Positions 2,696-18,721 of a DNA stretch of 61,681 nucleotides are shown here, piece by piece (position 1 is the stretch's first letter; each line of letters starts with the position of its first letter). The stretch covers positions 1 through 61,681 of the forward strand of contig JAFUXH010000061.1 in assembly GCA_017470945.1 (NCBI GenBank), given 5' to 3'. A program made the position numbers and the translations under genes. The DNA is from Clostridia bacterium. Lineage in GTDB: Bacteria > Bacillota > Clostridia > Christensenellales > Aristaeellaceae. The notes under the pieces were generated by a model. It was given only the letters and a program-made list of their open reading frames with translations. It had not been told where the DNA came from and ran no database searches.

Positions 2696-2712
2696 TACCA
2701 TCAAATGGTATT
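2694..2712. terminator. Hairpin between convergent genes
   Basis: AATACCAT-CAA-ATGGTATT is a perfect 8-bp stem overlapping the last codons of both convergent genes. With few flanking Us it is at best a weak bidirectional terminator. Confidence 0.45.
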
Positions 2713-3471
2713 CGCCAAATGAAACTTTTCCAGGATCCGCTTTCGCAGCGCATGAAACGCTTCATCGCCCCGGTACCGCGGATGGGGGAGATCGACCTGG
2801 ATGATCTCGCTGATGCGGCCCGGGCGGGGCGTCATGATCACGATCCGATCCGACAGATAGATTGCCTCATCCACATCGTGGGTCACCAGTACCATGGTGG
2901 CCTTATTTTGTGCGCGGATTTCCAGCAAGCGATCCTGTAAATCAGCCCTGGTAAACGAATCCAACGCGCCCATGGGCTCATCCAGCAGCAGCAATTCCGG
3001 ATCATTGATCAAGGCGCGGGCGATGGCTACCCTTTGCGCCATGCCGCCGCTGATTTCATGCGGGTAGGATTTTTCAAAGCCCTCCAGACCGACCATGCGG
3101 ATGAATTTCGGCACCTGATCCTTTTGCTGCTTGTAAAGATGCCGGGCTTTCAGCCCGGAGGAAATATTTTGCTCCACCGTCATCCAGGGGAACAGGCTGC
3201 CCTGCTGAAAAATATAGCCGCGGCTGGGATCCGGCCCGGAAATCACCTGATCTTCCATAAGCAGCCGCCCCGCCTGGGGGCGATCCAGCCCGCCAATCAG
3301 CCGCAGCAGCGTTGTTTTCCCGCAGCCGGAGGCGCCGATGATGGACAGAAATTCGCCGCGGTATACGTCCAGGCTGATATGCTGCAACGCTTCTACCCCC
3401 GCGGCCTGCGGGTTTCCGCTTTCGGTATACACCCGGCTCACATCCTGGATTTTCAGAAGGATCTCGCTCAC
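2701..3471 (-). CDS. NitT/TauT-family ABC transporter ATP-binding protein
   Basis: Complete nucleotide-binding subunit of the nitrate/sulfonate/taurine (NrtD/SsuB/TauB) group. Walker A is GASGCGKTT, the signature is SGGMAQRVAIARAL, Walker B is LLLLDEPMGALD, and the switch His is in LVTHDVDEAIYLSDRI. I place the start at GTG 3471 because AGAGGGG lies about 7 nt upstream and the codon overlaps the permease stop. A GTG at 3492 would add seven residues without a clear RBS. Third gene of a minus-strand operon (SBP-permease-ATPase). The neighbourhood suggests import of an organosulfur compound such as a sulfonate; that substrate is inference. Confidence 0.9.
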   Translation of the reverse strand: MSEILLKIQDVSRVYTESGNPQAAGVEALQHISLDVYRGEFLSIIGASGCGKTTLLRLIGGLDRPQAGRLLMEDQVISGPDPSRGYIFQQGSLFPWMTVEQNISSGLKARHLYKQQKDQVPKFIRMVGLEGFEKSYPHEISGGMAQRVAIARALINDPELLLLDEPMGALDSFTRADLQDRLLEIRAQNKATMVLVTHDVDEAIYLSDRIVIMTPRPGRISEIIQVDLPHPRYRGDEAFHALRKRILEKFHLANTI

Positions 3472-4529
3472 ACAAATTGCCCCCTCTGCCACCGAAGCAC
3501 ATACGCCTTCACCGCGTTCAGCACGGCCAGGATCAGGCTGAACAGGATCGCCATGACCAGGATCGTAGCAAACACCTTATAATAGGCGGCCCACACCTTG
3601 ACCACGTTGATGTAATAGCCCAAACCGCCGGGCTGCCCCATCATTTCCGCCATGACCAGGCAGGTGAAGGAAGAGGCGCAGGCGGTCGTGACGCCGGTAA
3701 AGATCTGGGGCATGGCATTGGGCACCGCCACGCGGAACACCAGGAAGGGCGTTTTTGCCCCCAGCGTTCGGGCTGCCTCAAATTGGGTGCGGGGCGTGTT
3801 TTTGATGCCAAAGGCCGTTTGAGAAGCTACCGGGAACCAGGAGCAGATGGCGATCAGGAACGTTGCGGCCCAAAACGGCGTGGGCAGCATGGTCAGCGCG
3901 AAGGGCATCCAGGCCACGGCGGGAATCACGCCGGTCATGCGCAGGACGGGATAAATCCAATAATACGCCCGGGGAAACCACCCGATCAGGATGCCTGTGC
4001 CCACGCCCAGCACCACGCCGCTTAAAAATCCGGCGCTGAACAGACGAAGGGAATAGAGCAGGTTGATCCACACCTGCTCCGTATCGATCAGGAAGGTTTC
4101 CAGGATCTGGGCCGGACCCGGGAAAAATGGCTGGGGCGTGACGCGCAGCTTCGTGCCGGCGATATCATAGGCCAGCAGCAAAATACCCATGGCAAAGCGG
4201 AAGCGGGCCTGCTTGCCATATTTTTCCCGGCGCGAAGGATCAAAAACGGCCCGAACGGCGGCCAGAAGGTAAATCAGGATCACTGTCAAAAGCACCAGAC
4301 GGTAAAAACCGTTCAGATCGACGGCCAGCCCTCCCACCTGGTATACCGGCGTTTTGATGCCGGCCGCTACCTGGGGAAACAGCAGATTGCCCACGATCGC
4401 AATAAAAAAGCCAGCGCTGGTCAGCAGCGCGGACAAACCCAGCCTTTTCAGGGAAATCACCGATTGTGTTTTCTCGGACGGCGGCGCGGAGACGGCAGGG
4501 CGCGTGGAACGGGATTGTACAGCGTGCAT
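3468..4529 (-). CDS. NitT/TauT-family ABC transporter permease
   Basis: Integral membrane protein of 353 aa. A BPD_transp_1 core in the second half carries the EAA-like coupling loop (QFEAARTLGAKTPFLVFRVAVPNAMPQIFTG is the typical EAARTLGA...P form). Compared with the usual ~260-aa SsuC/TauC, it has an N-terminal extension with about three extra transmembrane helices. It overlaps the ATPase gene by 4 nt and follows the SBP gene after a 79-nt spacer with a hairpin, which may lower expression relative to the binding protein. Imports the ligand captured by the 4609-5616 product. Confidence 0.88.
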   Translation of the reverse strand: MHAVQSRSTRPAVSAPPSEKTQSVISLKRLGLSALLTSAGFFIAIVGNLLFPQVAAGIKTPVYQVGGLAVDLNGFYRLVLLTVILIYLLAAVRAVFDPSRREKYGKQARFRFAMGILLLAYDIAGTKLRVTPQPFFPGPAQILETFLIDTEQVWINLLYSLRLFSAGFLSGVVLGVGTGILIGWFPRAYYWIYPVLRMTGVIPAVAWMPFALTMLPTPFWAATFLIAICSWFPVASQTAFGIKNTPRTQFEAARTLGAKTPFLVFRVAVPNAMPQIFTGVTTACASSFTCLVMAEMMGQPGGLGYYINVVKVWAAYYKVFATILVMAILFSLILAVLNAVKAYVLRWQRGQFV

Positions 4530-4608: not shown

Positions 4609-5616
4609 TTATTCCTGGCCCAGGGTCAGGTCGAGATAGGTGTAAGCCTTTGCGATATATTCCGCGGGATCGGTGTGCAGATAGCCGATGTCGTAAAGCG
4701 CCTGAGCGAAGTACTCCACGTCGGCCTTCACGTCCACCACATTGGTGCCTTGCTCATGATGGGGATAGGAATAGGACTTCACCAGCTGAAGCGCCAGGTC
4801 GTGATCCTCAATGGATACGTAGCCCGCCTTGGTGACCAATTCCACCGCTTCCTCGGGGTTCTCCGCGATCCAGGCCTGGGCTTTATGATAGGCGCGCAGC
4901 TCGGCGGCAATCAGTTCTGGCTGCTCCTCTACGACCTTGGTGGAAGCGTACAGATAGCAGCAGTAGTGGCCCGCGAAGGGCTCATCCTTGCCGATATCCA
5001 GAATGGTGCGGGCGGTTCCTTCATTTTCGGTGACGCTGGCAATGGGATCCCACAAGGCGGCCACATCCACGACGCCCTGCTTCAGCGCTTCCACCTCCAA
5101 GGAGCCGTCGTTGAAGGGAAGGAACTGCACGTCGTTAATCGTTATCCCGTTCTGCTCCAGCCACAGCAGCGCCACCTGATAAGGCGTTCCGCCGATTTCA
5201 TCCACGCCGATGACCTTGCCCTTCAGGTCCTCGACAGTCTGAATGTCGGAATTGGGCAGCACTTCCAGCTTGATGCAGCCCTGGTGCAGGCCGTCCACAA
5301 TGGTCATCTGGATATCCGCCTCAATGGAGGGGAAGTACTGGAAGTCGCCATTGATCGTGGAGATCGTGCCGTTGTTCAGGCCGATCTTCTTGGCCTCAAA
5401 ATCGGCGGTGATCAATTCCACGTCGATGCCTTCCTCGGCGAAATAGCCCAGCTCATACGCCAGATAGGTGGGGGAATTGCACAGGGAACCACTCTTGCCG
5501 GGAATGCTGATTTTCCACTGATATTCAGGCGTGGTTTCGGCCAACGCGGGAATCGCCAGCGTCAGGGCCATGGCCAGCGCCAGCACAACGGAGACGGCGG
5601 AAAAAAACTTTTTCAT
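4609..5616 (-). CDS. NitT/TauT-family ABC transporter substrate-binding protein
   Basis: 335-aa periplasmic-binding-protein-like II fold of the NMT1/SsuA type. The signal peptide ends ...TLAIPALAE, followed by a mature start with SIPGKSGSLCNSPTYLAYELGYFAEEGIDVELI, the typical first strand and helix of SsuA/TauA/NMT1 proteins. The signal peptide has an ALA-type cleavage site and no lipobox Cys, unusual for a binding protein in a Gram-positive lineage. RBS AAAAGGAG. Expression appears to depend on the leader peptide (5760-5852) and attenuator (5703-5740) upstream. The ligand is unknown; a sulfonate or other sulfur compound is suggested by context. Confidence 0.88.
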   Translation of the reverse strand: MKKFFSAVSVVLALAMALTLAIPALAETTPEYQWKISIPGKSGSLCNSPTYLAYELGYFAEEGIDVELITADFEAKKIGLNNGTISTINGDFQYFPSIEADIQMTIVDGLHQGCIKLEVLPNSDIQTVEDLKGKVIGVDEIGGTPYQVALLWLEQNGITINDVQFLPFNDGSLEVEALKQGVVDVAALWDPIASVTENEGTARTILDIGKDEPFAGHYCCYLYASTKVVEEQPELIAAELRAYHKAQAWIAENPEEAVELVTKAGYVSIEDHDLALQLVKSYSYPHHEQGTNVVDVKADVEYFAQALYDIGYLHTDPAEYIAKAYTYLDLTLGQE

Positions 5617-5702
5617 AAATCAGAAACTCCTTTTCTTCGTTTGGGTCAAATGGATCTATATCGTTCTCCTGTGGGGGCTGCAGACCGCAGGCGAAGGATA
5701 AC

Positions 5703-5740
5703 AAAAAAAGAAGAGCAGCGCGGATCATCCTCCTGCTCTT
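5703..5740 (-). terminator. Transcription attenuator in the SBP leader
   Basis: Read on the minus strand: 8-bp stem AAGAGCAG/CTGCTCTT (5740-5733 with 5718-5711), 14-nt loop, then C and a run of seven T. It lies 20 nt after the leader-peptide stop and about 90 nt before the SBP start, so it must be read through for transporter expression. A competing pairing exists: leader CCTGCCCTTTC (5789-5779) pairs with GAAAGAGCAGG (5742-5732) in 10 of 11 positions and would open the terminator. Confidence 0.75.
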
Positions 5741-5759
5741 TCGCACATCAAATGAACCT

Positions 5760-5852
5760 TTACTGGAAGCTCATGGCTGAAAGGGCAGGCAGGGCAGAAC
5801 AACACATCCGCTTCATGGAACGGCACGGCATTTTCCCATTCTGTTTCATCAT
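5760..5852 (-). CDS. Met/Cys-rich leader peptide of the ABC transporter operon
   Basis: 30 codons starting ATG ATG, with a strong RBS AAAGGAGG 5 nt upstream and a promoter 30 nt upstream. Six Met (1, 2, 8, 13, 16, 27) and three Cys (10, 17, 18) include the cluster RMCC at residues 15-18. The stop is followed at once by an attenuator. A ribosome held at Cys17-Cys18 would leave codons 22-25 free, and these bases form the antiterminator; a ribosome reaching the stop would cover them. This is the classic amino-acid attenuation layout with Cys (or Met) as the sensed residue. Too short for standard gene callers; no homologue known to me. Confidence 0.7.
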   Translation of the reverse strand: MMKQNGKMPCRSMKRMCCSALPALSAMSFQ

Positions 5853-5880
5853 GCCCGCCTCCTTTCGATTGATTGCGCAA

Positions 5881-5947
5881 AGTATAGCATACCGCCTATA
5901 GACCGTCAAATTGGAAATACCTATGGAAATGCATTCGAATAACCTAT
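5881..5947 (-). promoter_or_regulatory. Promoter and LysR half-site for the ABC transporter operon
   Basis: Minus-strand -35 TTGACG (5909-5904), 17-bp spacer, -10 TATACT (5886-5881). An ATAGG half-site (minus strand of 5943-5947, site centre about 5940) lies 31 bp from the -35 box, the same geometry as the other three promoters of the locus. A better palindrome-like site centred at 5917 overlaps the -35 flank. Confidence 0.7.
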
Positions 5948-5976
5948 TTGACATATAGGAAAATAGGTTGTATACT
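5911..5976 (+). promoter_or_regulatory. Promoter and LysR operator for the lysR transcript
   Basis: Plus-strand -35 TTGACA (5948-5953), 17-bp spacer, -10 TATACT (5971-5976), close to consensus. The site TTGG-AAATA-CCTATGG is centred at 5917, 31 bp before the -35 box. Extra ATAGG motifs overlap the promoter itself (5941-5969), suggesting autoregulation. Confidence 0.72.
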
Positions 5977-6005: not shown

Positions 6006-6086
6006 ATGCGCGTAGTTTTCTTTCCGTCCGGCATGGCGATGCAGTGCATGTGTATGTTCCCCATGCGCTTTTTGCCGTGCCTGTGA
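6006..6086 (+). CDS. Met/Cys-rich leader peptide before lysR
   Basis: 26 codons, ATG 6006 with CAGGAGG upstream. It holds six Met (1, 10, 12, 15, 17, 20) and three Cys (14, 16, 25), with the run MAMQCMCMFPM at residues 10-20. It begins about 25 nt after the predicted transcription start and is followed by an intrinsic terminator (6111-6144) before the lysR start. The same arrangement appears at 5760-5852 on the other strand and at 14610-14708. The composition is far outside chance for 26 codons and fits a ribosome-stalling sensor of Cys/Met-tRNA supply. Confidence 0.68.
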   Translation: MRVVFFPSGMAMQCMCMFPMRFLPCL

Positions 6087-6110: not shown

Positions 6111-6144
6111 GGCAGTTCGCACGGCGGACCGCCTTTTTTCTTTT
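6111..6144 (+). terminator. Attenuator between leader peptide and lysR
   Basis: Stem GGCAGTTCG/CGGACCGCC (6111-6119 with 6125-6133; one A.C mismatch, one G.T), loop CACGG, followed by TTTTTTCTTTT. Only a short competing pairing is visible (TTGCCG near the leader 3' end with CGGCAG), so the antitermination route is less clear than at the other two sites. Confidence 0.65.
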
Positions 6145-6161: not shown

Positions 6162-7109
6162 ATGACGATCCAACAGCTCAATTATGTGATTCATATTGCG
6201 GAATGCGGTTCCTTTAACCGGGCGGCGGAAAAGCTGTTTGTGGCGCAGCCTTCCCTGACAGGCGCGATCAAGGATTTGGAAAGAGAGACCGGCATTACCA
6301 TCTTTAACCGGACCGGCAAAGGCGTGACGCTGACGGCGGAAGGGGCGGAATTTTTGCCTTATGCGCGGTCTGTATACGATCAATTTCAAAACCTGCTGGA
6401 CGCCTATGGAAAAAACGGCGTGCGGAAACAGAAATTCGCCGTGTCCATGCAGCATTATTCCTTTGCGGTCAAGGCGTTTGTGGAATTGACCCGGGCCTTT
6501 GACGTGGGCGAATATGAGTTTGCCGTCCGGGAAACCAGAACCAAGGATGTGATCGCCGATGTGGCGGCCGCCCGCAGCGAGATCGGCATCCTGTATTTGA
6601 ATGATTTTAACCGCAAGGCTTTGCTCAAGCTGTTCAATGACAATAATGTGCAGTTTCAGCATCTGATCGACTGCGCCGCTTACGTTTATTTGTGGAAGCA
6701 TCACCCCTTGGCAAACAACAGCAGCGTTTCCTTCCACGATCTGCTGCCCTATCCCTGCCTGTCCTTTGAGCAGGGCGAGGGGAGCAATTTCTACCTGGCG
6801 GAGGAGATCCTTTCCACCAATGAATATCCCCGGATCATCAAATGCTGCGACCGGGCCACCGTGCTGAACCTGATGGTGGGCGTAAACGGATATACCTTGT
6901 GCAGCGGCATCATCTGCGAGGAATTGAACGGCGGCGATTATGTCGTCATTCCTTATCAGGATGAAAAGAACGCGCCGGACAGCACGATGGAATTAGGGAT
7001 GATCACAAGGAAGAACCATATCATTTCAGCTGTTGGCGAGCGCTATATCAGTGAATTGAAAAAATATCTTGGGATCCATGAATCGGCGCGGATACAGCCT
7101 GAGCCATAG
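6162..7109 (+). CDS. LysR-family transcriptional regulator of the sulfur locus
   Basis: 315 aa. The N-terminal winged HTH (MTIQQLNYVIHIAECGSFNRAAEKLFVAQPSLTGAIKDLERETGITIFNR) is typical of LysR/CysB-type proteins, followed by a periplasmic-binding-like effector domain. RBS AAAGGAGATAG. It lies between the divergent ABC transporter and the metY operon, and its stop codon overlaps the operator at 7104-7122. Operator-like ATAGG sites at constant spacing before four promoters make it the probable regulator of the entire 2.7-22 kb locus. The effector, perhaps O-acetylserine/homoserine or a sulfur compound, cannot be read from sequence. Confidence 0.88.
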   Translation: MTIQQLNYVIHIAECGSFNRAAEKLFVAQPSLTGAIKDLERETGITIFNRTGKGVTLTAEGAEFLPYARSVYDQFQNLLDAYGKNGVRKQKFAVSMQHYSFAVKAFVELTRAFDVGEYEFAVRETRTKDVIADVAAARSEIGILYLNDFNRKALLKLFNDNNVQFQHLIDCAAYVYLWKHHPLANNSSVSFHDLLPYPCLSFEQGEGSNFYLAEEILSTNEYPRIIKCCDRATVLNLMVGVNGYTLCSGIICEELNGGDYVVIPYQDEKNAPDSTMELGMITRKNHIISAVGERYISELKKYLGIHESARIQPEP

Positions 7110-7420: not shown

Positions 7421-7454
7421 ATTGATAACAAGGAAAATCAAAGGAGATAGAATC

Positions 7455-8759
7455 ATGTCTGATATTAAGAATTCCGCCAATTGGAGCTTTGAAACCCGTC
7501 AATTGCACATCGGCCAGGAGCAGGCTGATCCCGTAACCGACGCCCGCGCGGTGCCGATTTACGCCACCACTTCTTATGTGTTCCATAACAGCGAGCATGC
7601 CGCCGACCGCTTTGGCCTCAGGGATGCCGGCAATATTTACGGAAGGCTGACCAACCCCACCCAGGGCGTGTTTGAAGCCCGCATCGCCTCCCTGGAGAGC
7701 GGCAGCGCGGCGCTGGCGGTTGCCTCCGGCGCGGCGGCCATCACCTACACCTTCCAGGCGCTGGCCAAAGCGGGCGAGCATATCGTGGCCTCCAAGACCA
7801 TCTACGGCGGCACCTTCAACCTGCTGGCCCACACGCTGCCTTTGACTTCCGGTATCACCACCACCTTTGTGGATCCCGACGTGGAGGGCAGCTTTGAAAA
7901 GGCCATCCAGGAAAATACCAAGGCCATTTTTATCGAGACCCTGGGCAACCCCAATTCCAACATCATCGATATTGAAGCCGTCGCGAAGATCGCCCACGCC
8001 CATGGCATCCCGCTGGTGGTGGATTCCACCTTTGCCACGCCATACCTGGTGCGGCCCATTGAATACGGCGCGGATATCGTGGTGCATTCCGCCACCAAGT
8101 TCATCGGCGGCCACGGCACGGCCATCGGCGGCGTGATCGTGGAGGGCGGCAAATTTGACTGGAAGAAGAGCGGCAAGTATCCCTGGATCAGCGAACCCAA
8201 CCCCAGCTACCACGGCATCTCCTTCTATGACGCCGTAGGCCCCGCCGCTTTCGCCACCTATATCCGGGCGATCCTGCTGCGGGATACCGGCTCCACCCTG
8301 TCGCCCTTCCACGCCTTCATTTTCCTGCAAGGGCTGGAAACGTTGTCCCTGCGGGTGGAGCGGCACGTGGAGAACGCGCTGAAGATCGTGGAATACCTTT
8401 CCAAGCATCCCCAGGTGGAAGCGGTGCACCATCCCGCCCTGGAGACCGAGCCCAGCCACAAGCTGTACCAGAAATACTTTCCCAATGGCGGCGGCAGCAT
8501 TTTCACCTTTGAAATCAAGGGCGACAGCGATACCGCCAAGAAGTTCATCGACAACCTGGCCATCTTCTCCCTGCTGGCCAATGTGGCGGATGTGAAATCC
8601 CTGGTGATCCACCCCTTCACCACCACCCACAGCCAGTTGACCGAGGAAGAATTGCTCGATCAGGGTATCCAGCCCAACACCATCCGGCTGTCTATCGGCA
8701 CGGAAAACGTAAACGACCTGATCGCTGCCCTGGAGGCTGCTTTTGAAGCGGTCAAATAA
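7455..8759 (+). CDS. metY: O-acetylhomoserine sulfhydrylase (aminocarboxypropyltransferase)
   Basis: 434-aa PLP enzyme of the Cys/Met metabolism family. It makes homocysteine from O-acetylhomoserine and sulfide (or methionine from methanethiol). Family marks are SFETRQLHIGQE at the start, YGRLTNPTQGVFEARIASLESG, the PLP-binding HSATK215FIGGHG, and the MetY-specific insertion and length of about 430 aa, against about 380-400 for MetB/MccB. Start ATG 7455 has RBS AAAGGAGATAG. First enzyme of an operon with symporter, ridA, two more PLP lyases/synthases and a cysteine-synthase-type enzyme. Confidence 0.92.
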   Translation: MSDIKNSANWSFETRQLHIGQEQADPVTDARAVPIYATTSYVFHNSEHAADRFGLRDAGNIYGRLTNPTQGVFEARIASLESGSAALAVASGAAAITYTFQALAKAGEHIVASKTIYGGTFNLLAHTLPLTSGITTTFVDPDVEGSFEKAIQENTKAIFIETLGNPNSNIIDIEAVAKIAHAHGIPLVVDSTFATPYLVRPIEYGADIVVHSATKFIGGHGTAIGGVIVEGGKFDWKKSGKYPWISEPNPSYHGISFYDAVGPAAFATYIRAILLRDTGSTLSPFHAFIFLQGLETLSLRVERHVENALKIVEYLSKHPQVEAVHHPALETEPSHKLYQKYFPNGGGSIFTFEIKGDSDTAKKFIDNLAIFSLLANVADVKSLVIHPFTTTHSQLTEEELLDQGIQPNTIRLSIGTENVNDLIAALEAAFEAVK

Positions 8760-8824
8760 GGAAAAAGAGGACGGTACAGGGAGTGGAGCGGCACCTCCGC
8801 TCCCTGTATGTTATCAGGAGGTGC

Positions 8825-10099
8825 ATGATATCCATGAGCGAATCCACCCGAAAACCTTCCAATAAAAAAGCCCTCCGATTGAGCGCCGCCATTCTGATCG
8901 GCCTGATCCTGGGCGCGCTGTTCGGCCTGGTGATGCCCGATTGGGCGCAGCCGGTGACCAGCCTGATCGCCACCGTTTATCTTCATGCCCTGACCATGAT
9001 GATCTATCCTTTGGTATTCTGTTCCCTGATCGTGGGCATCAAGGGGATCGGCAGCGTGTCCGCCACCGGCAAAGTGGGCGGGCAGGCGCTTTTGTATTTT
9101 ATCGGCACCACGCTGTTTGCAAGCCTTCTGGGCCTGTTCCTGCCCAAGGCCCTGAATATCGGCGCCGGCGTCGCCGTCGAAATGGCGGAGGCGGATGTGC
9201 AGGCGGCCCAGTTCACCAGTCTGGTGGATACGATTCAAAATCTGATCCCCGCCAATCCCTTTGCGGCTTTTGTCAACGGCAATATGCTGCAGGTGCTGGT
9301 GTTTGCCATCATCGTGGGCATCACCTGCTTGGCGCTGGGCAAAAAGGCCGATCCGTTCGTGAAGCTCTGCGAGGCGGTGGATGAAATATCGGTAAAGATC
9401 GTTTCCGCCGTGATGTACACCACGCCCGTGGGCGTGTTTTGCTCCCTGGCGGGCACGGTGCACGCCAACGGCTTGCAGACCATCCTGTCCCTGGCGGCGG
9501 TGCTGGGTATTTTGTACCTGGTCATGGCGCTGTATATTGTGATCGTGTACGGCGTGGTGCTGGTGAAGGGCATCGGGAAATTCAGCATCCGGAAGTTTTT
9601 TGTCACCGTCCTGCCAGCCGGGCTGAACGCCTTTGGCACCGCCTCTTCCTCCGCCACGCTGCCCATCAGCAAGCGCTGCGCCGATGAGATGGATGTGCCC
9701 AACGAAATTTCTTCCCTGGCGCTGCCCCTGGGCGCAACCATCAACATGGACGCCGTTTCCATCGTGATGTCCTTCATGATCGTATTCTTCGCCAACGCCA
9801 CCGGCACGGAAATTTCCTACGGCCTGCTGGCGGTGGTGCTGCTGAGCAACACGCTGCTGTCGATCGGCGCGCCGGGCGTGCCCAACAGCGCCATCGCGTC
9901 CTTTGCGGCGCTGGCGACAATCGCCGGGCTGCCAACGGGGATCATGGGTATGTACGTCAGCGTCAATATCCTGGTGGACGCCGGGGCCACCTGCTGCAAT
10001 GTGCTGGGCGATCTGGCCAGCGCCGTCGCCATGAAGCGCACCTGCAAGCTGCCGAAAACGCATCAAAATACCTTAACGGAAGAGGGGCAAACGTTATGA
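8825..10099 (+). CDS. Dicarboxylate/amino acid:cation symporter (DAACS family)
   Basis: About 424 aa with eight or more membrane segments and the family core. The SSSATLPISKRCADE segment matches the serine-rich re-entrant loop HP1, and LPLGATINMDA matches the NMDGT motif of TM7, here NMDAV. The family takes up glutamate, aspartate, C4-dicarboxylates or, in the TcyP branch, cystine. Position between metY and ridA suggests cystine or another sulfur amino acid; this is inference. RBS AGGAGG at 8816-8821; ATG 8825 and ATG 8834 are both possible starts. Its stop overlaps the ridA ATG (TTATGAG). Confidence 0.85.
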   Translation: MISMSESTRKPSNKKALRLSAAILIGLILGALFGLVMPDWAQPVTSLIATVYLHALTMMIYPLVFCSLIVGIKGIGSVSATGKVGGQALLYFIGTTLFASLLGLFLPKALNIGAGVAVEMAEADVQAAQFTSLVDTIQNLIPANPFAAFVNGNMLQVLVFAIIVGITCLALGKKADPFVKLCEAVDEISVKIVSAVMYTTPVGVFCSLAGTVHANGLQTILSLAAVLGILYLVMALYIVIVYGVVLVKGIGKFSIRKFFVTVLPAGLNAFGTASSSATLPISKRCADEMDVPNEISSLALPLGATINMDAVSIVMSFMIVFFANATGTEISYGLLAVVLLSNTLLSIGAPGVPNSAIASFAALATIAGLPTGIMGMYVSVNILVDAGATCCNVLGDLASAVAMKRTCKLPKTHQNTLTEEGQTL

Positions 10100-10476
10100 G
10101 AGCAATTTACACAGACAAAGCTCCCGCCGCCATCGGGCCGTATTCCCAGGCAATCGCGGCGGGCAGGCTCCTTTATACCTCCGGCCAGATCCCCATTGAT
10201 CCCCATTCCGGCGTGATCGAAAGTATCGGCATCGAAGAGCAGACCGAACAGGCCCTGCAAAATCTTCAGGCGGTGCTGGAAGCGGCGGGGAGCGGCCTTC
10301 AGTGTGTCATCAAAACGACGTGCTTTTTGCAGCGGATCTCAGATTTTGCCGCGTTCAACGCCGTGTATGAAAAGTATTTTCCCGGCAAGCCTGCCAGAAG
10401 CTGCGTAGAGGTATCCGCCCTGCCTAAAGGCGCGCTGGTGGAAATTGAGGCCATTGCCATTACAACAGACGCATAA
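10096..10476 (+). CDS. ridA: RidA family reactive enamine/imine deaminase
   Basis: 126 aa, full length for the YjgF/YER057c/UK114 family. Motifs: APAAIGPYSQAI at the start, LLYTSGQIPIDP, the QALQNLQAVLEAAG helix, and CVEVSALPKGALVEIEAIA at the end. The Arg of the ARSCVEV segment is the usual carboxylate-binding residue. RidA hydrolyses 2-aminoacrylate and related enamines released by PLP beta/gamma-lyases, which explains its place among three such enzymes. The start codon overlaps the symporter stop (ATGA), so it is translationally coupled. A terminator follows at 10490-10511. Confidence 0.92.
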   Translation: MRAIYTDKAPAAIGPYSQAIAAGRLLYTSGQIPIDPHSGVIESIGIEEQTEQALQNLQAVLEAAGSGLQCVIKTTCFLQRISDFAAFNAVYEKYFPGKPARSCVEVSALPKGALVEIEAIAITTDA

Positions 10477-10489
10477 AAAACGGATCTGC

Positions 10490-10511
10490 GCGGGCTCTGC
10501 GAGCCCGCTTT
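10490..10511 (+). terminator. Terminator after ridA
   Basis: Perfect stem GCGGGCTC-TGC-GAGCCCGC followed by TTTCTCC. The short U-run suggests partial read-through into the lyase genes. Confidence 0.65.
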
Positions 10512-10550
10512 CTCCGTGATTGAACCAATACGAAAGTCGACAGAAAAGAA

Positions 10551-10633
10551 GAAATTTTTTCGGGCTTTTTCCGCCGTGGCCGCGCTTCCTTCCGGCCCGC
10601 TTTGCCGCGGCGAAAAACACCTCGAAAATTTTC
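10551..10633. repeat. Palindromic intergenic repeat (family A, copy 1)
   Basis: About 80 bp able to fold back on itself: the left arm TTTTTCGGGCTTTTTCCGCC... matches the inverse of GGCGAAAAACACCTCGAAAA on the right with a few mismatches. The centre, CGCTTCCTTCCGGCCCGCTTTGCC, resembles the centre of the element at 16506-16664. Probably a MITE- or REP-like repeat. Confidence 0.5.
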
Positions 10634-10676
10634 TCTCCTTTTCAATAGAATTTAGCATCGGAAAGGACCGGACTTC

Positions 10677-11873
10677 ATGGCGAAAAAAGAAAACAAGTTT
10701 CAGGGCTATGGCATTTCCACCCAGGCGATCCATACGGGCACGGATTACGATCAGGAAACCGGGGCCGTGCGCCGTCCCTTGCATATGGCAAACAGCTTTA
10801 AGCTGCCGGATGATCTTTCCCAGGTCAATTATTCCTCCACCGACCTGCTGATGTACGCCCGCAACGGCAACCCCAATCAGCACTGGCTGGAAGAAAAAAT
10901 CGCCGCCCTGCACGGGGCGGACGACGCGATCGTATTAGCCAGCGGCGTAGGCGCGCTGCACGCCCTGTTCTGGACGCTGCTGAAATCCGGGGATCGGGTG
11001 GTCTATCCCAAGGTCAGCTACATGGCGGTGTATCGGATGTTCCATGAGCTGTTTAACCGCAAATTCGGCGTGGAAACCATCATGGTGGATATGACGAATC
11101 TGGAGGAAGTGAAAGCGGCCATCACCCCCGGCACCAGGCTTGTTCACATTGAAACGCCGGATAATCCCACGGTGGGGGTGACGGATATCGCCGCCATCGC
11201 GAAAATCGCCCATGAAAATGGGGCGCTGCTGTCCGTGGACAACACGTTTGCTTCCCCGCTGAACCAAAAACCGCTGTCATTGGGCGCTGACTTCGTGGTG
11301 GAGGCGCTGACCAAATTCATCAACGGCCACGGCGACGCCCAGGGCGGGGCCATCATTTCCAACGATCTGGAAACCATGGATCGCATCCGCTATGAGGCCC
11401 AGGTGAACGTGGGCGCTGTGATCAGCCCCTTCAACGCCTGGCAGATTTTCCGCGGCTCCGTCACCTTTCCGCTTCGGATGCGGCGCATCAACGAATCGAC
11501 GCAAAAAATCGCCGAATGGCTGGAAAAACGGGAAAACGTCACCTTCGTTTCCTATCCCGGCCTGCCCAGCCATCCGGGGCACGACCTGGCCAAACGGCAG
11601 ATGCAAAACGGTTACGGCGGCGTGATTTCCTTTGGCGTGAATGCCGACGATCACACGGTGGAGCGCTTCTGCGCGGCGCTGAAGGTGGTCACCTTCGCCG
11701 TCTCCCTGGGCCACGACGAAAGCCTGATCTTCCCCCAGCCCAGCTACGACGAGCGGATCCTGCTGTACCCGGAGAAATTCCGCAAGGGCTTCATCCGCTT
11801 CAGCGTAGGCCTGGAGGAGCCGGAGGATATCATCGGCGACCTGGATCAGGCGCTGAAAAAAGTCGGCCTTTGA
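10677..11873 (+). CDS. PLP-dependent Cys/Met metabolism lyase (cystathionine gamma-lyase/methionine gamma-lyase-like)
   Basis: 398 aa of the trans-sulfuration enzyme family: GYGISTQAIHTGTDYDQETGAV start, MYARNGNPNQHWLEEKIAALHGAD, and PLP lysine in EALTK213FINGHGDAQGG. The usual S of SxTK is replaced by L (EALTK), and the substrate loop YARNGNPNQ differs from the common YsRtgNPT. That suggests a subfamily distinct from MetB and MccB, perhaps a gamma-lyase working on an unusual sulfur substrate. RBS GGAAAGGA. It is followed after 33 nt by mccB. Confidence 0.82.
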   Translation: MAKKENKFQGYGISTQAIHTGTDYDQETGAVRRPLHMANSFKLPDDLSQVNYSSTDLLMYARNGNPNQHWLEEKIAALHGADDAIVLASGVGALHALFWTLLKSGDRVVYPKVSYMAVYRMFHELFNRKFGVETIMVDMTNLEEVKAAITPGTRLVHIETPDNPTVGVTDIAAIAKIAHENGALLSVDNTFASPLNQKPLSLGADFVVEALTKFINGHGDAQGGAIISNDLETMDRIRYEAQVNVGAVISPFNAWQIFRGSVTFPLRMRRINESTQKIAEWLEKRENVTFVSYPGLPSHPGHDLAKRQMQNGYGGVISFGVNADDHTVERFCAALKVVTFAVSLGHDESLIFPQPSYDERILLYPEKFRKGFIRFSVGLEEPEDIIGDLDQALKKVGL

Positions 11874-11906
11874 CCGCGGGACAGAATCAGGAAGGAGATA
11901 AGCAGC

Positions 11907-13067
11907 ATGGCGTATTATGAGAACATCGAATCCGCGCTGATTCACGGCGGCATCAGCACAGATCCGGCCACCGGGGCGGTGAACGTGCCCATTTATCAAA
12001 CCTCCACCTACCAGCAGCAGGGCCTGGGCGAAAACGCCGGATGGGAGTATTCCCGCACCGGCAATCCCACCCGGGCGGCGCTGGAAGCGCTGATCGCCGA
12101 ATTGGAGGGCGGTGCGGCCGGCTTTGCCTTCGCTTCCGGCATGGCCGCCATCACCGCCGTGCTCAGTTTGCTGAAAAGCGGGGATGAAGTGATCATTTCC
12201 AGCAATGTGTACGGCGGCACCTTCCGGGTGCTGGACAAGGTATTTTTGCCTTTTGGCCTCAAATACAAGATCGTGGATACCTCCGATCTTGCGCAGGTGG
12301 AGGAGGGCATCGGCACTCAAACCCGCGCCATTCTGATCGAGAGCCCCGCCAATCCCCTGCTGACGGTCACCGATCTTGCGGGCGTTTCCGCCATTGCCAG
12401 AAAGCACGGCATCCTTTCCATTGTGGACAACACCTTTATGACGCCCTATTTGCAGCGTCCGCTGGAATTGGGGGCGGATATCGTGCTGCACAGCGCCACC
12501 AAATACCTGGGCGGGCACAGCGATCTGGTGGCGGGGCTGGTGGTGGTCAAGGATGAAGCCCTGGCAAAGCGGCTGGCCTTTCTCCAGAACGCCACCGGCG
12601 GCGTGCTGGGGCCTTTTGATTCCTTTTTGCTCATCCGCGGCATCAAAACGCTGGCGGTGCGCATGGATCGGCACGTGGAAAACGCGGAAAAGGCCGCACG
12701 GTTCCTGCAAGCGCATCCGGCGGTCAAGCATATCTATTACCCCGGATTGCCGAACAGCGAGGGCTATGCAATCAATCGGCGGCAGGCCAGGAACGGCGGC
12801 GCGATGATTTCCTTTGAACTGTATGAAAATTATGATATCCGCGCGTTTTTCAAAGCGCTGCGGCTGATTGCCCTGGCGGAAAGCCTGGGTGGCGTGGAAA
12901 GCCTGGTTTGCCATCCGGCCACCATGACCCACGCCTCCATTCCCAAGGAGATCCGGGATCAGGTGGGCATCACCGAGGGGCTGATCCGCCTGTCTGTCGG
13001 CATTGAAAACAGCGATGATCTGCTGGCCGATCTGGAGCAGGCCATTGCGAAAGGAGAAAGAAAATGA
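11907..13067 (+). CDS. mccB: Cystathionine gamma-lyase / homocysteine gamma-lyase (MccB-like)
   Basis: 386 aa, very close to the MetB/MccB pattern: ESALIHGGISTDPATGAVNVPIYQTSTYQQ, GWEYSRTGNPTRAALE, PLP lysine in HSATK199YLGGHSDLVAG. It converts cystathionine to cysteine in reverse trans-sulfuration; MetB activity in the other direction cannot be excluded from sequence. The decisive context is mccA immediately downstream with a 4-nt overlap, as in the Bacillus mccAB pair. RBS AGGAGATAAGCAGC. Confidence 0.88.
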   Translation: MAYYENIESALIHGGISTDPATGAVNVPIYQTSTYQQQGLGENAGWEYSRTGNPTRAALEALIAELEGGAAGFAFASGMAAITAVLSLLKSGDEVIISSNVYGGTFRVLDKVFLPFGLKYKIVDTSDLAQVEEGIGTQTRAILIESPANPLLTVTDLAGVSAIARKHGILSIVDNTFMTPYLQRPLELGADIVLHSATKYLGGHSDLVAGLVVVKDEALAKRLAFLQNATGGVLGPFDSFLLIRGIKTLAVRMDRHVENAEKAARFLQAHPAVKHIYYPGLPNSEGYAINRRQARNGGAMISFELYENYDIRAFFKALRLIALAESLGGVESLVCHPATMTHASIPKEIRDQVGITEGLIRLSVGIENSDDLLADLEQAIAKGERK

Positions 13068-13975
13068 GCTATTACGCTTCCACTCAGGCGCTGATTGGCA
13101 ATACGCCGCTGGTGCAGCTGATCCATGGAGACCTGCCGGAGGGCGTGCGGCTTTTTGCCAAGCTGGAATTGTATAATCCCTCCGGCAGCGTGAAGGACCG
13201 GACCGGCAAATACATGATCGAGGACGCGGAACGAAGGGGCCTTTTGAAGCCGGGGGGCACCATTGTGGAAGGAACGGCGGGCAATACGGGCCTGGGCATC
13301 GCCTTTACCGCCCTGCACAAAGGGTACCGTGTCATTTTGTCCGTGCCCACCAAGTTTTCCGCGGAGAAGCAAACGCTGCTGCGGGCGCTGGGCGCGGAAA
13401 TCATCAATACGCCCCGGGAGGAAGGCATGCTGGGCGCGGAGGCAAAGGCGGAGGAGATCCGCGCTTCCATCCCCGGGGCGATCACCCTGCGGCAATTCTA
13501 TAATCCCGCCAACCCACTGGCCCACTATGAAACCACCGGGCCGGAAATTTATCGGGACCTGGATGGTCATATCGATTATTTGGTGGCGGGCGCGGGCAGC
13601 GGCGGCACATACTCCGGTGTCGTGCGCTATCTCAAAGAACAAAACCCCGCCATTCGCGGCATCCTGGCCGACCCGGTGGGCTCCACCATGGGCGGCGGCG
13701 AGCACGGTGATTATAATATCGAAGGGATCGGCAATGATTTTATCGCCGACACCATGGATATGTCGCTGGTGGATGAGGTCGTCAAGATCAACGACGACGA
13801 TGCCTTCACCGGCGCCCGGGAGCTGGCGAAGCGGGAAGGCATCATTGCCGGCTCCTCCTCCGGCGCGGCGTACGCGGCGGCAAAGAAGCTGATTGCCGCC
13901 GGCACCCGGGGCAACATCGTGGTGATCCTGCCGGACCGGGGCGACCGCTATTTCAGCAAAAATCTGTATGAATAA
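13064..13975 (+). CDS. mccA: Cystathionine beta-synthase/cysteine synthase family enzyme (MccA-like)
   Basis: 303-aa fold-type II PLP enzyme. The PLP lysine lies in PSGSVK44DRTGKYMI, the phosphate-binding loop is GAGSGGTYSG, and the substrate-carboxylate loop is EGTAGNTGLGIA. It lacks the C-terminal regulatory CBS domains. With mccB it would convert homocysteine plus O-acetylserine or serine to cystathionine and then cysteine. CysK activity is the alternative: EGTAGNT (Ala where CysK has the Ser of TSGNT) argues for MccA rather than CysK. Coupled to mccB by ATGA overlap. Confidence 0.87.
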   Translation: MSYYASTQALIGNTPLVQLIHGDLPEGVRLFAKLELYNPSGSVKDRTGKYMIEDAERRGLLKPGGTIVEGTAGNTGLGIAFTALHKGYRVILSVPTKFSAEKQTLLRALGAEIINTPREEGMLGAEAKAEEIRASIPGAITLRQFYNPANPLAHYETTGPEIYRDLDGHIDYLVAGAGSGGTYSGVVRYLKEQNPAIRGILADPVGSTMGGGEHGDYNIEGIGNDFIADTMDMSLVDEVVKINDDDAFTGARELAKREGIIAGSSSGAAYAAAKKLIAAGTRGNIVVILPDRGDRYFSKNLYE

Positions 13976-14609: not shown

Positions 14610-14708
14610 ATGAGGACAAACGTTTTTGCACAGCGGATCATGATGCGCATGCGCCTGGCAGGCATGTGTGCTTGTTTGCTGCGCGGCGGCCCGATTCCTT
14701 TGGCTTGA
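14610..14708 (+). CDS. Met/Cys-rich leader peptide of the opp operon
   Basis: 32 codons from ATG 14610 with AAAGGAG upstream. It holds five Met (1, 11, 12, 14, 19) and two Cys (20, 22) in the run MMRMRLAGMCAC (11-22). The stop is followed by a strong attenuator at 14725-14755. Bases 14690-14698 (CCCGATTCC), about five codons past Cys22, can pair with 14718-14726 (GGAATGGGG; 8 of 9), taking away the first two bases of the terminator stem. This mirrors the leader on the minus strand at 5760-5852. Confidence 0.7.
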   Translation: MRTNVFAQRIMMRMRLAGMCACLLRGGPIPLA

Positions 14709-14724
14709 TCAAAGACTGGAATGG

Positions 14725-14755
14725 GGCGTCCGCGGCATCGGACGCCTTTTTCTTT
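14725..14755 (+). terminator. Transcription attenuator of the opp operon
   Basis: Perfect 8-bp stem GGCGTCCG-CGGCAT-CGGACGCC (14725-14746) followed by TTTTTCTTT, between the leader peptide and the structural genes. Confidence 0.82.
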
Positions 14756-14873: not shown

Positions 14874-16505
14874 ATGAAACGCGTTTTTGCTTTATTCCTC
14901 TCCCTGGCCCTTATTTTGTCAGCCTTTTCCGTCGCCTCCGCCGAAGAGGGCAAACGGGTGCTGAATTGGTTTATTGCCGGTGAAGTGACCACCCTGGATA
15001 CCGGAAAAACGTATGATACCCTGTCCGGCGCCGCCGTCGCCTATTTTGCCGATACGCTGTATCGCCTGGATCAGAACGCCGAACCCATTCCCAACTTGGC
15101 CGTCGACGCACCCGTCATCAGCGAGGATGGCCTGACCGTCACGGTCACCATCCGGGACAACGCTTATTATGCCAACGGGGAAAAGATCGTGGCGGGCGAT
15201 ATCGTGTACGCGGTGCAGCGGGTGTTTGATCCCGCCGTGGGTTCTCAGAACACCTCCATCACCGGCATCAAGAATCGTGACGCTGTGCGCGCCGGGGAAT
15301 TGCCCGTGGACGAATTGGGCGTCAAAGCGCCGTCTGATACGGTGGTAGAATTCACTTTGGACGCGCCTGATCCCTACATCACCAAGAAGCTGGCCGATAC
15401 GGCCTTCGCGCCGGTATCCCGCGCCTTTGTGGAGCAGTGGGGCGACCAATATGCCCTGTCCAGCGAAGCGCTGCTGGCCTCCGGCCCCTTCTCCATCGAA
15501 GGCTGGACGGGAACGGAAATCAGCTGGAAATATGTAAAGAACCCCTACTATTGGGATCAGGAGAATATCTGGTTTGACGAGATCAACATCCAGATCATCA
15601 AGGATGCCAATACCGCCATCAATCTCTATGAGGCGGGCCAATTGGACGGCGTCAGCCTGACCACCGATTTTGTGCCGCTGTATGCCGGCACGCCCGATCT
15701 GGTGGCCGTGCCTTCCCTGCGCATGACCAACCTGGAATTGGGGATCAATTCCATTGAGGTGAATCCCGATTATTCCAACAATTATCTGCAAAATCTGAAT
15801 ATCCGCAAAGCGCTTCTTTACGGCCTGGATCGTTCTGAATTGACGGATATCGTGCTCAACGGCGCCGCGACCCCGGCTGTGGGCGTGATCCCCAACGGCA
15901 TTGCCTCCTCTCCTTCCGGCGAGAGCGTGGCGGAAAGCTTTGGAACGCTGGTTTATACCGATATTCCTGCCGCTCAGGAATACTTCCGCCAGGGCCTGGA
16001 GGAGCTGGGCGTCGACGGCATCAAGCTGCGGCTGGTGACCTCCGACACCGATGAATCCATCAAGATCGGCACTTACCTGCAATCCGCCTATCAGACCAAC
16101 CTGCCCGGGCTGACCATCGATCTTGCCAACGTGCCCTCCTCCGTTCGGTTTGACGAGATGATGGCTTATCAGTTTGACCTGGCGCTGGGCGGCTGGACGG
16201 GCGATTACGATCCCACCTCCTATCCCAATCAATTTGAAACCAGCTATGCCCACAACCACGGGCAGTGGAAGAGCGAGGAGCTGACCGCCCTGATCAACGC
16301 CTTGAATTCTGAGGATGGCACGGATTTCGAGCTGCGCTGGGAGCATCTGCGGCAGGCCAATCAATACCTGATCGACAATGCCGTGGTCGTGCCGCTGGAG
16401 CAGAGCGTGAATAATTACCTGGTCAATCCCAACCTGAAGGGCTATATCACCCTGCAATTGGGCTCCAGCGCCTTTGATGTGACCCGCGCTTATTTTGAAG
16501 ATTGA
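14874..16505 (+). CDS. Oligopeptide-type ABC transporter substrate-binding protein (OppA/SBP_bac_5)
   Basis: 543 aa. The signal peptide ends SAFSVASAEE with an AxA-type cleavage site and no lipobox Cys. Mature protein has family features: LNWFIAGEVTTLDTGKTYDTLSGA, a LYRLDQNAEPIPNLA strand, LTVTVTIRDNAYYANGEKIVAGDIVYAVQRV, and ENIWFDEINIQII. It captures peptides or peptide-like compounds for the permeases that follow. Start chosen at ATG 14874 (AGAAGG upstream, signal peptide). The LysR operator and Cys/Met leader upstream suggest sulfur-containing peptides, glutathione-like compounds or N-acyl cysteine derivatives as ligands; this is inference. Confidence 0.9.
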   Translation: MKRVFALFLSLALILSAFSVASAEEGKRVLNWFIAGEVTTLDTGKTYDTLSGAAVAYFADTLYRLDQNAEPIPNLAVDAPVISEDGLTVTVTIRDNAYYANGEKIVAGDIVYAVQRVFDPAVGSQNTSITGIKNRDAVRAGELPVDELGVKAPSDTVVEFTLDAPDPYITKKLADTAFAPVSRAFVEQWGDQYALSSEALLASGPFSIEGWTGTEISWKYVKNPYYWDQENIWFDEINIQIIKDANTAINLYEAGQLDGVSLTTDFVPLYAGTPDLVAVPSLRMTNLELGINSIEVNPDYSNNYLQNLNIRKALLYGLDRSELTDIVLNGAATPAVGVIPNGIASSPSGESVAESFGTLVYTDIPAAQEYFRQGLEELGVDGIKLRLVTSDTDESIKIGTYLQSAYQTNLPGLTIDLANVPSSVRFDEMMAYQFDLALGGWTGDYDPTSYPNQFETSYAHNHGQWKSEELTALINALNSEDGTDFELRWEHLRQANQYLIDNAVVVPLEQSVNNYLVNPNLKGYITLQLGSSAFDVTRAYFED

Positions 16506-16664
16506 TACGATTCTCCGTCTAAAACGTTGAATCTTCGGGCGTCTTTTCCACTCTGGCTGTGCTTCCCTCCGGTCAACGTAGCGCTGCTACGCCTCCCTTC
16601 GTTCAGCTTTGCCAGAACGAAAAATCCATCCCAAATCTTTCAACATTTTAGCCGTCGAATCGTA
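16506..16664. repeat. Palindromic intergenic repeat (family A, copy 2)
   Basis: Terminal inverted repeats of 26 bp (16506-16531 and 16639-16664, 22 of 26 matching) enclose a smaller palindrome CGTAGC-GCT-GCTACG (16577-16591) and TCTGGC/GCCAGA arms. The element lies inside the opp operon between binding-protein and permease genes. Probably a MITE-like or cruciform repeat that can act as an RNA-stabilising hairpin. Confidence 0.6.
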
Positions 16665-16700
16665 TAAGGCAAACATAAAAGAGGACTTTCTGATTTCCTG

Positions 16701-16735
16701 GGGCTCCCGGCGTATCGTGTCTCCGGGAGCCCTTT
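16701..16735 (+). terminator. Intercistronic terminator-like hairpin before the permease genes
   Basis: Perfect 10-bp stem GGGCTCCCGG/CCGGGAGCCC (16701-16710 with 16723-16732), then TTT. Probably a partial terminator giving more binding protein than permease. Confidence 0.6.
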
Positions 16736-16759
16736 CCTGTACAATGGAGGATATGCGCC

Positions 16760-17698
16760 GTGAATCGATGGATCCCTTATATTGCCAGGCGGTTGTTTTA
16801 TATGGCGTTCACGCTGTTTATCATCATCACCGCCACCTTTTTCCTGATGAATTTCCTTCCGGGCACGCCCTTTAACAATCAGGATCGGCTCAGCGCCGCG
16901 CAGCTGGAAATGCTGAATTCTAAATATGGGTTTGACCAGCCGCTTTTTCAGCGCTATGTGAATTATCTGAAAAACATCCTGCACGGCGACTTTGGCATTT
17001 CTCTGCAATTTTCCGATCAGAAAATCACCACGCTCCTGCGCCAGCGGCTTGGCCCCAGCGTTCAATTGGGCATCCAGGCGGTGGTATTCGGCACGGTGCT
17101 GGGCGTGATCCTCGGGATCATCGCCGCCATGCATCAAAACCGCTTTCTGGATGTATTTTGCTCCCTGTTCGCCATCACGGGCCGATCGGTGCCCAATTTT
17201 GTGGTGGCCGTACTGCTTCAATTGTTATTTGCCATCACGCTCAAATGGCTGCCCATCGGGCTTTGGAACGAGGGCTTCCGCTCCACGATCCTGCCCACGC
17301 TGGCACTGTCGATTTCGCCCATGGCGGAAAGCTGCCGGTTCATCCGCACGGAAATGGTGGAGGTGCTTTCCTCCGATTATATTGAATTGGCCCGGGCGAA
17401 GGGCATGAGCGAAATCCGCATTGCCTTCTCCCACGGATTGCGCAACGCGCTGATCCCCCTGATCACGGTGCTGGGGCCCATGACGGTTTCTTTGATGACC
17501 GGGTCGCTGGTGGTGGAAAACATTTTTGCCGTTCCGGGCATTGGCGAGCAATTCACCAAATCGATCCTCTCCAATGATTATTACACCATCATGGCGGTCA
17601 CCATCCTGTTTTCCGCGTTGCTTGTCGCGGTGATTTTCCTGACGGATATCCTGTATCAGCTCATCGATCCCCGCGTGCGGGTGGAGGCAAGCGCATGA
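16760..17698 (+). CDS. Oligopeptide-type ABC transporter permease (OppB-like)
   Basis: 312 aa with six predicted membrane helices. The start IARRLFYMAFTLFIIITATFFLMNFLPGTPF is characteristic of DppB/OppB, and the EAA loop is YIELARAKGMSEIRIAFSHGLRNALIPLITVLG. GTG start 16760 with GGAGG upstream. It overlaps oppC by 4 nt. With the OppC-like partner it forms the channel of the transporter. Confidence 0.92.
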   Translation: MNRWIPYIARRLFYMAFTLFIIITATFFLMNFLPGTPFNNQDRLSAAQLEMLNSKYGFDQPLFQRYVNYLKNILHGDFGISLQFSDQKITTLLRQRLGPSVQLGIQAVVFGTVLGVILGIIAAMHQNRFLDVFCSLFAITGRSVPNFVVAVLLQLLFAITLKWLPIGLWNEGFRSTILPTLALSISPMAESCRFIRTEMVEVLSSDYIELARAKGMSEIRIAFSHGLRNALIPLITVLGPMTVSLMTGSLVVENIFAVPGIGEQFTKSILSNDYYTIMAVTILFSALLVAVIFLTDILYQLIDPRVRVEASA

Positions 17699-18717: not shown

Positions 18718-18721
18718 GAGG

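Follow-up and report, generated by a model that had tools for sequence, protein, structure and literature searches.

The question raised by this locus is what switches on an ABC transporter operon that, in a bacterium of the class Clostridia (family Aristaeellaceae), is flanked by sulfur-assimilation genes. In this class, sulfur genes are expected to be controlled by SAM riboswitches, T-boxes or protein regulators. A search of the window (the whole stretch of 61,681 nt that was analyzed) against Rfam returned no match, including the T-box (RF00230) and the SAM riboswitch (RF00162). A preliminary description had proposed another solution, namely a leader peptide rich in Cys and Met, followed by a complete attenuator switch. 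Such a device would share the layout of the trp/his-type attenuators, which consist of a leader ORF, regulatory codons and mutually exclusive antiterminator and terminator structures, and would differ from them in the amino acid, the phylum and the target genes.

The minus strand carries every part named in that description. A sigma-70-type promoter, TTGACG-17-TATACT (5881..5909), matches the consensus at 10 of 12 positions and carries a TG before the second hexamer. It is followed by a Shine-Dalgarno (SD) sequence, AAAGGAGG (5858..5865), and by an ORF of 30 codons, MMKQNGKMPCRSMKRMCCSALPALSAMSFQ, running from the ATG at 5852 to the stop at 5760, which has a counterpart in the closest relative (L006, 7741-7836). 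Its translation places Cys codons at positions 10, 17 and 18, the last two within the motif RMCC (residues 15-18, 5799..5810), and these regulatory codons match the sulfur genes found around. An intrinsic terminator (5703..5740) begins 19 nt past the stop, made of a hairpin at 5740-5711 (-14 kcal/mol) and a U tract, CTTTTTTT; the stretch 5742-5711 folds with a z-score of -3.08, and none of 200 shuffles was equally stable. Folding the entire 5' leader at equilibrium was uninformative (z -0.5, with 58 of 200 shuffles equally stable). The first gene after the terminator encodes an SsuA/NMT1-like substrate-binding protein (4609..5616), followed by an ABC permease (3468..4529) and an ABC ATPase (2701..3492), all on the minus strand; promoter, SD and short ORF thus stand ahead of the first gene, as expected of an attenuator.

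The preliminary description also held that leader bases 5789-5779 (codons 22-25) pair with 5742-5732 at 10 of 11 positions, and this is correct as read from the sequence. The partner (5732..5742) overlaps the 5' arm of the terminator, so that the leader segment (5779..5789) has the position of an antiterminator. By convention, the edge of the ribosome footprint lies at +12 from the A-site. A ribosome with Cys17 at its A-site leaves the segment barely exposed, and a ribosome at the stop codon covers it, so the geometry first proposed holds under this setting. The pairing of the free segment with the terminator 5' arm reaches -17.3 kcal/mol, compared with -12.3 +/- 2.4 in 500 shuffles (p = 0.04). 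At equilibrium, the terminator forms with a probability of 0.92 when the ribosome is at the stop, as an attenuator requires, but the same calculation gave 0.89 for a stall at Cys17 and 0.92 at Cys18, and only a stall at Cys10 brought it to 0.0. When the RNA was cut before the terminator 3' arm, the 5' arm was sequestered with a probability of 0.62 in the stalled state and 0.26 at the stop. Since a stall at either Cys17 or Cys18 leaves the terminator dominant at equilibrium, pairing during transcription must be assumed. Calling the switch "complete" thus claims rather much: the parts, the spacing and a pairing above chance stand, whereas the folding with and without a stalled ribosome, proposed as a check, flips at Cys10 and leaves the terminator intact at Cys17-18.

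Beyond what had been described, the window contains two further leaders, and the role of the flanking genes in sulfur assimilation had not been noted either. A divergent unit on the plus strand starts at the promoter TTGACA-17-TATACT (5948..5976; 11 of 12 consensus positions) and comprises a second leader ORF, MRVVFFPSGMAMQCMCMFPMRFLPCL (6006..6086), its terminator, identified by folding (6111..6139), a LysR-type regulator (6162..7109) and a block of sulfur genes (7422..13975). The latter encode an OAH sulfhydrylase (7422-8759), an SDF symporter (8783-10099), RidA (10096-10476), two Cys/Met PLP enzymes (10677-11873 and 11907-13067) and a cysteine synthase (13064-13975). Behind them, also on the plus strand, stand the third leader ORF, MRTNVFAQRIMMRMRLAGMCACLLRGGPIPLA (14610..14708), found like the second by the ORF/terminator scan, its folded terminator (14725..14751) and a set of peptide-type ABC transporter genes ending in an M20 amidohydrolase (14874..21863). 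These include a binding protein (14874-16505), permease and ATPase ORFs, and the amidohydrolase itself (20664-21863), the families having been searched for the binding protein and the amidohydrolase. An Opp-type transporter and an M20 amidohydrolase thus stand behind a Cys/Met leader, where they perhaps import sulfur-containing peptides or N-acyl compounds and deacylate them.

The number of such leaders exceeds what chance would produce. With thresholds fixed after the three leaders had been seen, a scan for SD-led ATG ORFs before a terminator, with at least two Cys and 18% Cys plus Met, found three in the window and a mean of 0.01 (maximum 1) in 100 dinucleotide shuffles. Requiring only at least three Cys gave three versus 0.35, and requiring only at least two Cys gave four versus 0.99, a level reached by 1 of 100 shuffles; a looser scan yielded six more Cys-rich ORFs with hairpins besides the three. 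The two additional leaders also switch more readily in equilibrium folding. The terminator probability falls from 0.99 at the stop to 0.0 with a stall at Cys14 or Cys16 in the second, and from 0.95 to 0.0 with a stall at Cys20 in the third.

Evidence from other genomes came in part from a sample selected on the terminator, made of 66 regions upstream of cystathionine-lyase homologues, for which 32 of 37 places without a locus were fetched and from which the window's own region and five second tandem copies were left out. A strong U-tailed hairpin was found within 420 nt in 14 of these regions. Eleven of the 14 hairpins follow an SD-led ORF of 12-50 codons at a distance of 0-60 nt from its end (in fact, 17-35 nt in every case), and all 11 ORFs are Cys-rich, with 60 Cys among 338 residues (17.8%). 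The other three terminators (L139, L149 and L159) belong to SAM riboswitches recognized by Rfam, which also found T-boxes at the lyase loci L129, L113 and L108; these screens covered 40 loci plus nine further leader loci, and not all of the 66 regions. As a control, 53 other ORF/terminator pairs from 46 loci contain 2.7% Cys, with three Cys-rich ORFs, and 14 genes of the window contain 0.83%. The test was not blind, as 10 of the 11 leaders had already been seen, and 6 of the 11 come from a single genus, g182; without three loci brought in by an earlier search (L070-L072), the result is 8 of 8.

In all, 29 Cys-rich leaders with terminators were collected from 15 genomes, mostly ahead of sulfur genes. 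Thirteen of these genomes represent eight families, six of them lying in genus g182, while G700 and G701 were not placed. The collection drew on an ORF/terminator scan of 46 loci (580 rows) that returned 47 distinct Cys-rich ORFs, of which 16 (13 distinct peptides) were kept and 31 were dropped on the grounds of their hairpin, gap, start codon or place in the locus, without individual inspection. One member, G225_oahs, has 13 nt between SD and ATG, escaped the scanner and was found by eye; another, G513_cgl, starts with GTG. The first genes after the leaders encode a PLP enzyme of the cystathionine-lyase type, OAH sulfhydrylase, a nitrogenase-like cluster, the SsuA-like transporter, MetQ or MetN (by the MetN model), a SAM-dependent methyltransferase next to the lyase, LysR and Opp-type products, and a binding protein, seen as a fragment of 82 residues, that comes nearest to a cystine-binding model; for G700_c279 the first gene was not seen. 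Around metQ, 7 of 20 upstream stretches have a leader near the MetN/MetQ gene, and two others hold lyase leaders only. The 29 peptides comprise 941 residues, with 125 Cys (13.3%; 93 TGT and 32 TGC codons, 2-7 per leader) and 104 internal Met (11.1%); these totals are no test, because the set was collected for Cys. Eleven leader loci searched against Rfam contained neither T-box RF00230 nor SAM riboswitch RF00162, nor anything else at gathering score, and five weak matches in seven loci, at E-values up to 5, did not fall at a leader.

The pairing test was extended to 21 of the 29 leaders, each compared with 500 shuffles and with stall codons chosen after the leaders had been seen. Complementarity between the freed segment and the terminator arm gave p below 0.05 in 9 of 21 and was individually non-significant in the other 12; the overall Fisher p of 4e-9 counts related leaders as independent, six of the 21 being from one genus. 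With the RNA cut before the 3' arm, mean sequestration of the 5' arm was 0.66 in the stalled state and 0.24 at the stop. The difference exceeded 0.3 in 17 of 21 leaders, a count that includes one leader whose undefined value at the stop was set to zero. Exceptions include the second leader of the window (0.75 stalled, 0.46 at the stop) and the G700 ortholog, for which the pairing itself is significant (p = 0.008), but the 5' arm is sequestered at 0.62 stalled versus 0.54 at the stop. Full equilibrium folding of most leaders favors the terminator whatever the state of the ribosome. The five metQ leaders of genus g182 share a helix of 10 pairs (CUCCCGGG plus two) formed with the terminator arm; 50 of 50 cells are paired, and sliding the partner lowers this to 18-70%. 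The changes in this helix are one wobble and one G-C/A-U double change, which may be a single event because it splits the five leaders into two groups; with five related sequences and one double change, the covariation score was reached by 48 of 500 shuffles.

Relatives carrying the transporter provide a direct comparison. The closest ortholog, in G700 (RGIG4956), has a binding protein 88% identical and its own leader, MKRYANGRMCCQCTMCMVCLLRASASVQPLA, with five Cys, in which RMCC and the terminator are kept. In G701 (RGIG4322), whose binding protein is 73% identical, inspection by eye and the scan found a terminator-like hairpin and no Cys leader at the transporter gene. Loss of the Cys/Met codons or of the terminator from the leaders of relatives had been named beforehand as an outcome that would refute the proposal; the loss of the Cys leader is seen in this one relative, and G700 retains its leader. 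The search for short ORFs before the transporter likewise succeeded in part, with a Cys leader heading the unit in 5 of 13 ortholog genomes (the window genome G000, G700, G225, G512 and G384) and none found in 8; this count omits the 42% matches L008 and L009, includes G648 through one stretch, and may miss operon starts lying outside the stretch read. The distribution of the binding protein is patchy: searching the genus gave orthologs in 1 of 29 genomes (E 1e-40), the order in 2 of 297 (E 1e-50), the class in 10 of 391 (E 1e-60) and the surroundings of G700 in 2 of 200, the query genome or G700/G701 being included in every count. At the DNA level, a search of the region in 60 genomes gave, besides the window, one match of 29 bp.

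Sulfur genes neighbor the transporter in the window as well as around its orthologs. In nine relatives within the class, translations inspected by eye place the binding-protein gene after an OAH sulfhydrylase in seven and after a cysteine synthase in one, and PF01053 confirmed the sulfhydrylase in G512, G384 and G500. In several of them, the gene belongs to a cluster with NifD/K/B/H-like genes, whose families were tested for G225 only. The nearest chains to the G225 NifD-like protein are 9fmg and 9d9u (E about 1e-125), the next nitrogenase being at 2e-37. 9FMG is the structure of methylthio-alkane reductase (PMC12552129), and MarDK has been described in heliobacteria (PMC9147875). Among eight genomes searched, five (G701, G225, G512, G693 and G631) have a match to the G225 NifD-like protein, and G000, G700 and G634 have none. 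At L020, L021, L024, L026 and L027, the transporter lies inside methylthio-alkane-reductase-like clusters with OAH sulfhydrylase, and the window genome and G700 carry the transporter, with no methylthio-alkane reductase found.

Amino-acid attenuation, as initially put forward, is the best reading of these data, given that the G700 leader keeps RMCC and the terminator and that the design recurs in 15 genomes. The anatomy, the recurrence and the pairing come directly from computation; from them we infer, with a probability of about 85%, that the 5852-5760 unit is translated, that ribosomes stall on it and that it acts as a ribosome-mediated, cysteine-responsive transcription attenuator. Briefly, with enough cysteine, the ribosome would reach the leader stop and cover the antiterminator segment, the terminator hairpin would form, and RNA polymerase would stop short of the transporter. 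Under cysteine shortage, the ribosome would wait at the Cys codons for charged cysteinyl-tRNA, and the leader segment downstream could pair with the terminator 5' arm as transcription proceeds. The terminator would then be prevented, and transcription would run on into what is probably a transporter of sulfur compounds. The bacteria that carry the switch would probably turn on sulfur uptake when the ribosome runs short of cysteine.

The identity of the signal deserves discussion, because the Cys and Met codons alternate (RMCC, MCMC), and a shortage of either charged tRNA would stall the ribosome suitably. A leader that reads methionine, or both amino acids jointly, is accordingly an alternative, if a less likely one. 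Internal Met is second in abundance only to Cys, for which the set was chosen; MC or CM occurs in 23 of 29 leaders, some leaders precede MetN or MetQ genes, and the neighboring genes serve both amino acids. Against this, G701_cgl and G513_cgl have six Cys each and no internal Met. Since all 29 leaders, chosen for Cys, hold 2-7 Cys codons and these two lack internal Met, cysteine is the more likely signal. The same motifs could also be taken as the core of an arrest peptide, in which the nascent MCC(R)M chain would halt translation upon sensing a small molecule or the redox state, and not for want of charged tRNA-Cys. The MCCRM core and the final Arg-Cys common to most g182 leaders, together with the presence of ATGTGTTG in 15 of 29, would suit this mechanism, which we nonetheless consider improbable: outside g182, Cys positions, spacing and neighbors vary freely (CCACCC, CALCCC, MCNVCMCM), as expected for the counting of codons and not for a fixed nascent chain. 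As to those endings, ten g182 leaders finish in Arg-Cys (CGATGT) at the stop (L187, L189, L190, L191, L192, L116, L120, L122, L123 and L131), G383_cgl being one residue longer, and an eleventh, in G641, ends in Leu-Cys; a CC core is present besides. A stall at the terminal Arg-Cys would not free the antiterminator.

Two further explanations dispense with attenuation altogether, and both appear very improbable. The ORF, which has a promoter and an SD, might encode a working Cys-rich small protein, binding metals or thiols, with the hairpin merely as its terminator. However, its length (20-50 residues) and sequence vary, the conserved parts include the codons that pair with the terminator, and at 11 of 11 lyase sites a gap of 17-35 nt separates the end of the ORF from the gene-proximal terminator. 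Alternatively, hairpin and U run might be by-products of a second small ORF, starting at GTG 5746 and encoding a signal-peptide-like sequence (MRKSRR..LLFLLSFACGLQPPQ) and continuing into the gene of the binding protein. The frame is indeed open from 5746 to 5525, and its Leu/Phe codons make up the U run. Yet the matching frame in G700, inspected by eye, has a stop and no ATG, GTG or TTG before the U run, the peptide is not kept in G701, and the hairpin is more stable than 200 of 200 shuffles. Nor does the U run seem to belong to a lipoprotein-like ORF, an idea rejected since the frame is kept in neither G700 nor G701.

Cysteine leaders are already known, having been described in mycobacteria and predicted in Rhodobacterales, and what is apparently new is their place and extent in Clostridia; a literature search, with subscription papers mostly outside its scope, found none that deals with clostridial cysteine leader peptides among the matches listed. 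The polycysteine leaders of mycobacteria are reportedly cysteine-responsive, with leaderless ORFs, to go by the title of a 2020 paper by Canestrari. In mycobacteria and other Actinobacteria, Cys-codon leader ORFs precede cys operons, and PMC1262725 states that the mycobacterial regions have no conserved terminator hairpins; a paper citing the 2020 work speaks of translation attenuation (PMC13236596). The likeness lies in a Cys-codon leader before cys operons, and the difference is that the 5852-5760 leader, like the others in the window, is SD-led and has a terminator and an antiterminator, whereas the mycobacterial ones are, by these accounts, leaderless and have no conserved intrinsic terminator. 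A closer precedent is uORFC-8-2, located before cysS in Rhodobacterales, which, according to PMC8632094, combines two tandem Cys codons (usually at 14 and 15), an intrinsic terminator and a proposal of ribosome-mediated attenuation, as in the window leaders. By its description, it belongs to Alphaproteobacteria and to one gene, cysS, whereas the leaders reported here have 2-7 Cys codons and precede many sulfur-uptake and assimilation genes, the window itself being clostridial. Leader-peptide attenuation is likewise documented in Firmicutes for a His leader before hisS paralogs in bacilli, although for histidine and in bacilli; its authors (PMC2965389) then knew of none outside Proteobacteria and Actinobacteria, ermC apart.

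If the reading is true, a leader-peptide regulon for cysteine, perhaps for cysteine and methionine, would be added to the Clostridia, providing a handle on which transporters import organic sulfur. Control would also be linked to clusters in which the nearest match of the NifD-like protein is MarD of methylthio-alkane reductase, an enzyme producing methanethiol and small hydrocarbons. Elsewhere in the class, SAM riboswitches and T-boxes precede these cystathionine-lyase homologues, and neither has a match in the window or at the 11 leader loci; a leader peptide, a riboswitch or a T-box at the same gene within one class would be a clean case of RNA-switch replacement. A wider proposal, tentative and with the odds somewhat against it, is that Met/Cys-codon attenuators form a clostridial regulon, a third layer of sulfur control. 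It would sense both charged tRNA-Cys and charged tRNA-Met, stand in for T-boxes and SAM riboswitches at shared target genes and extend to clusters of methylthio-alkane reductase; the scavenging of organic sulfur would then depend on how fast ribosomes move along a sulfur-rich peptide.

Other shared sequence elements were noted in these regions. A stretch of ACTGACTGG(A/C)AAACC, followed by a hairpin and a T run, precedes cysteine synthase and OAH sulfhydrylase genes in two families (L023, 6300-6620; L028, 5200-5620), with no Rfam match at gathering for either. Between the terminator and the binding-protein gene lies a block of 22 nt, CTGCGGTCTGCAGCCCCCACAG (5669..5690, minus strand), identical in G000 and G700 and kept in part in G701 as GATCTGCAGCACCC (L006 and L007, before the binding-protein gene). 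It is possibly a hairpin loop; folding gave z -1.5 in the window and -0.2 in L007, the L006 stretch being one arm short. As a genome-wide site, this CTGCAG element was found unsupported, with exact matches in four genomes only at three transporter loci; allowing up to one mismatch, G000 has 21 in all. An inverted repeat, AACCTATTT..AAATAGGTT (5941..5969), lies between the divergent promoters and over the -35 of the second leader. A pattern for this CCTAT..TAGG palindrome near the -35 matches upstream of 15 of the 29 leaders (for instance L122 and L189), ten of them in g182, compared with 27 of 2400 random 90-nt stretches, which suggests a shared regulator besides attenuation.
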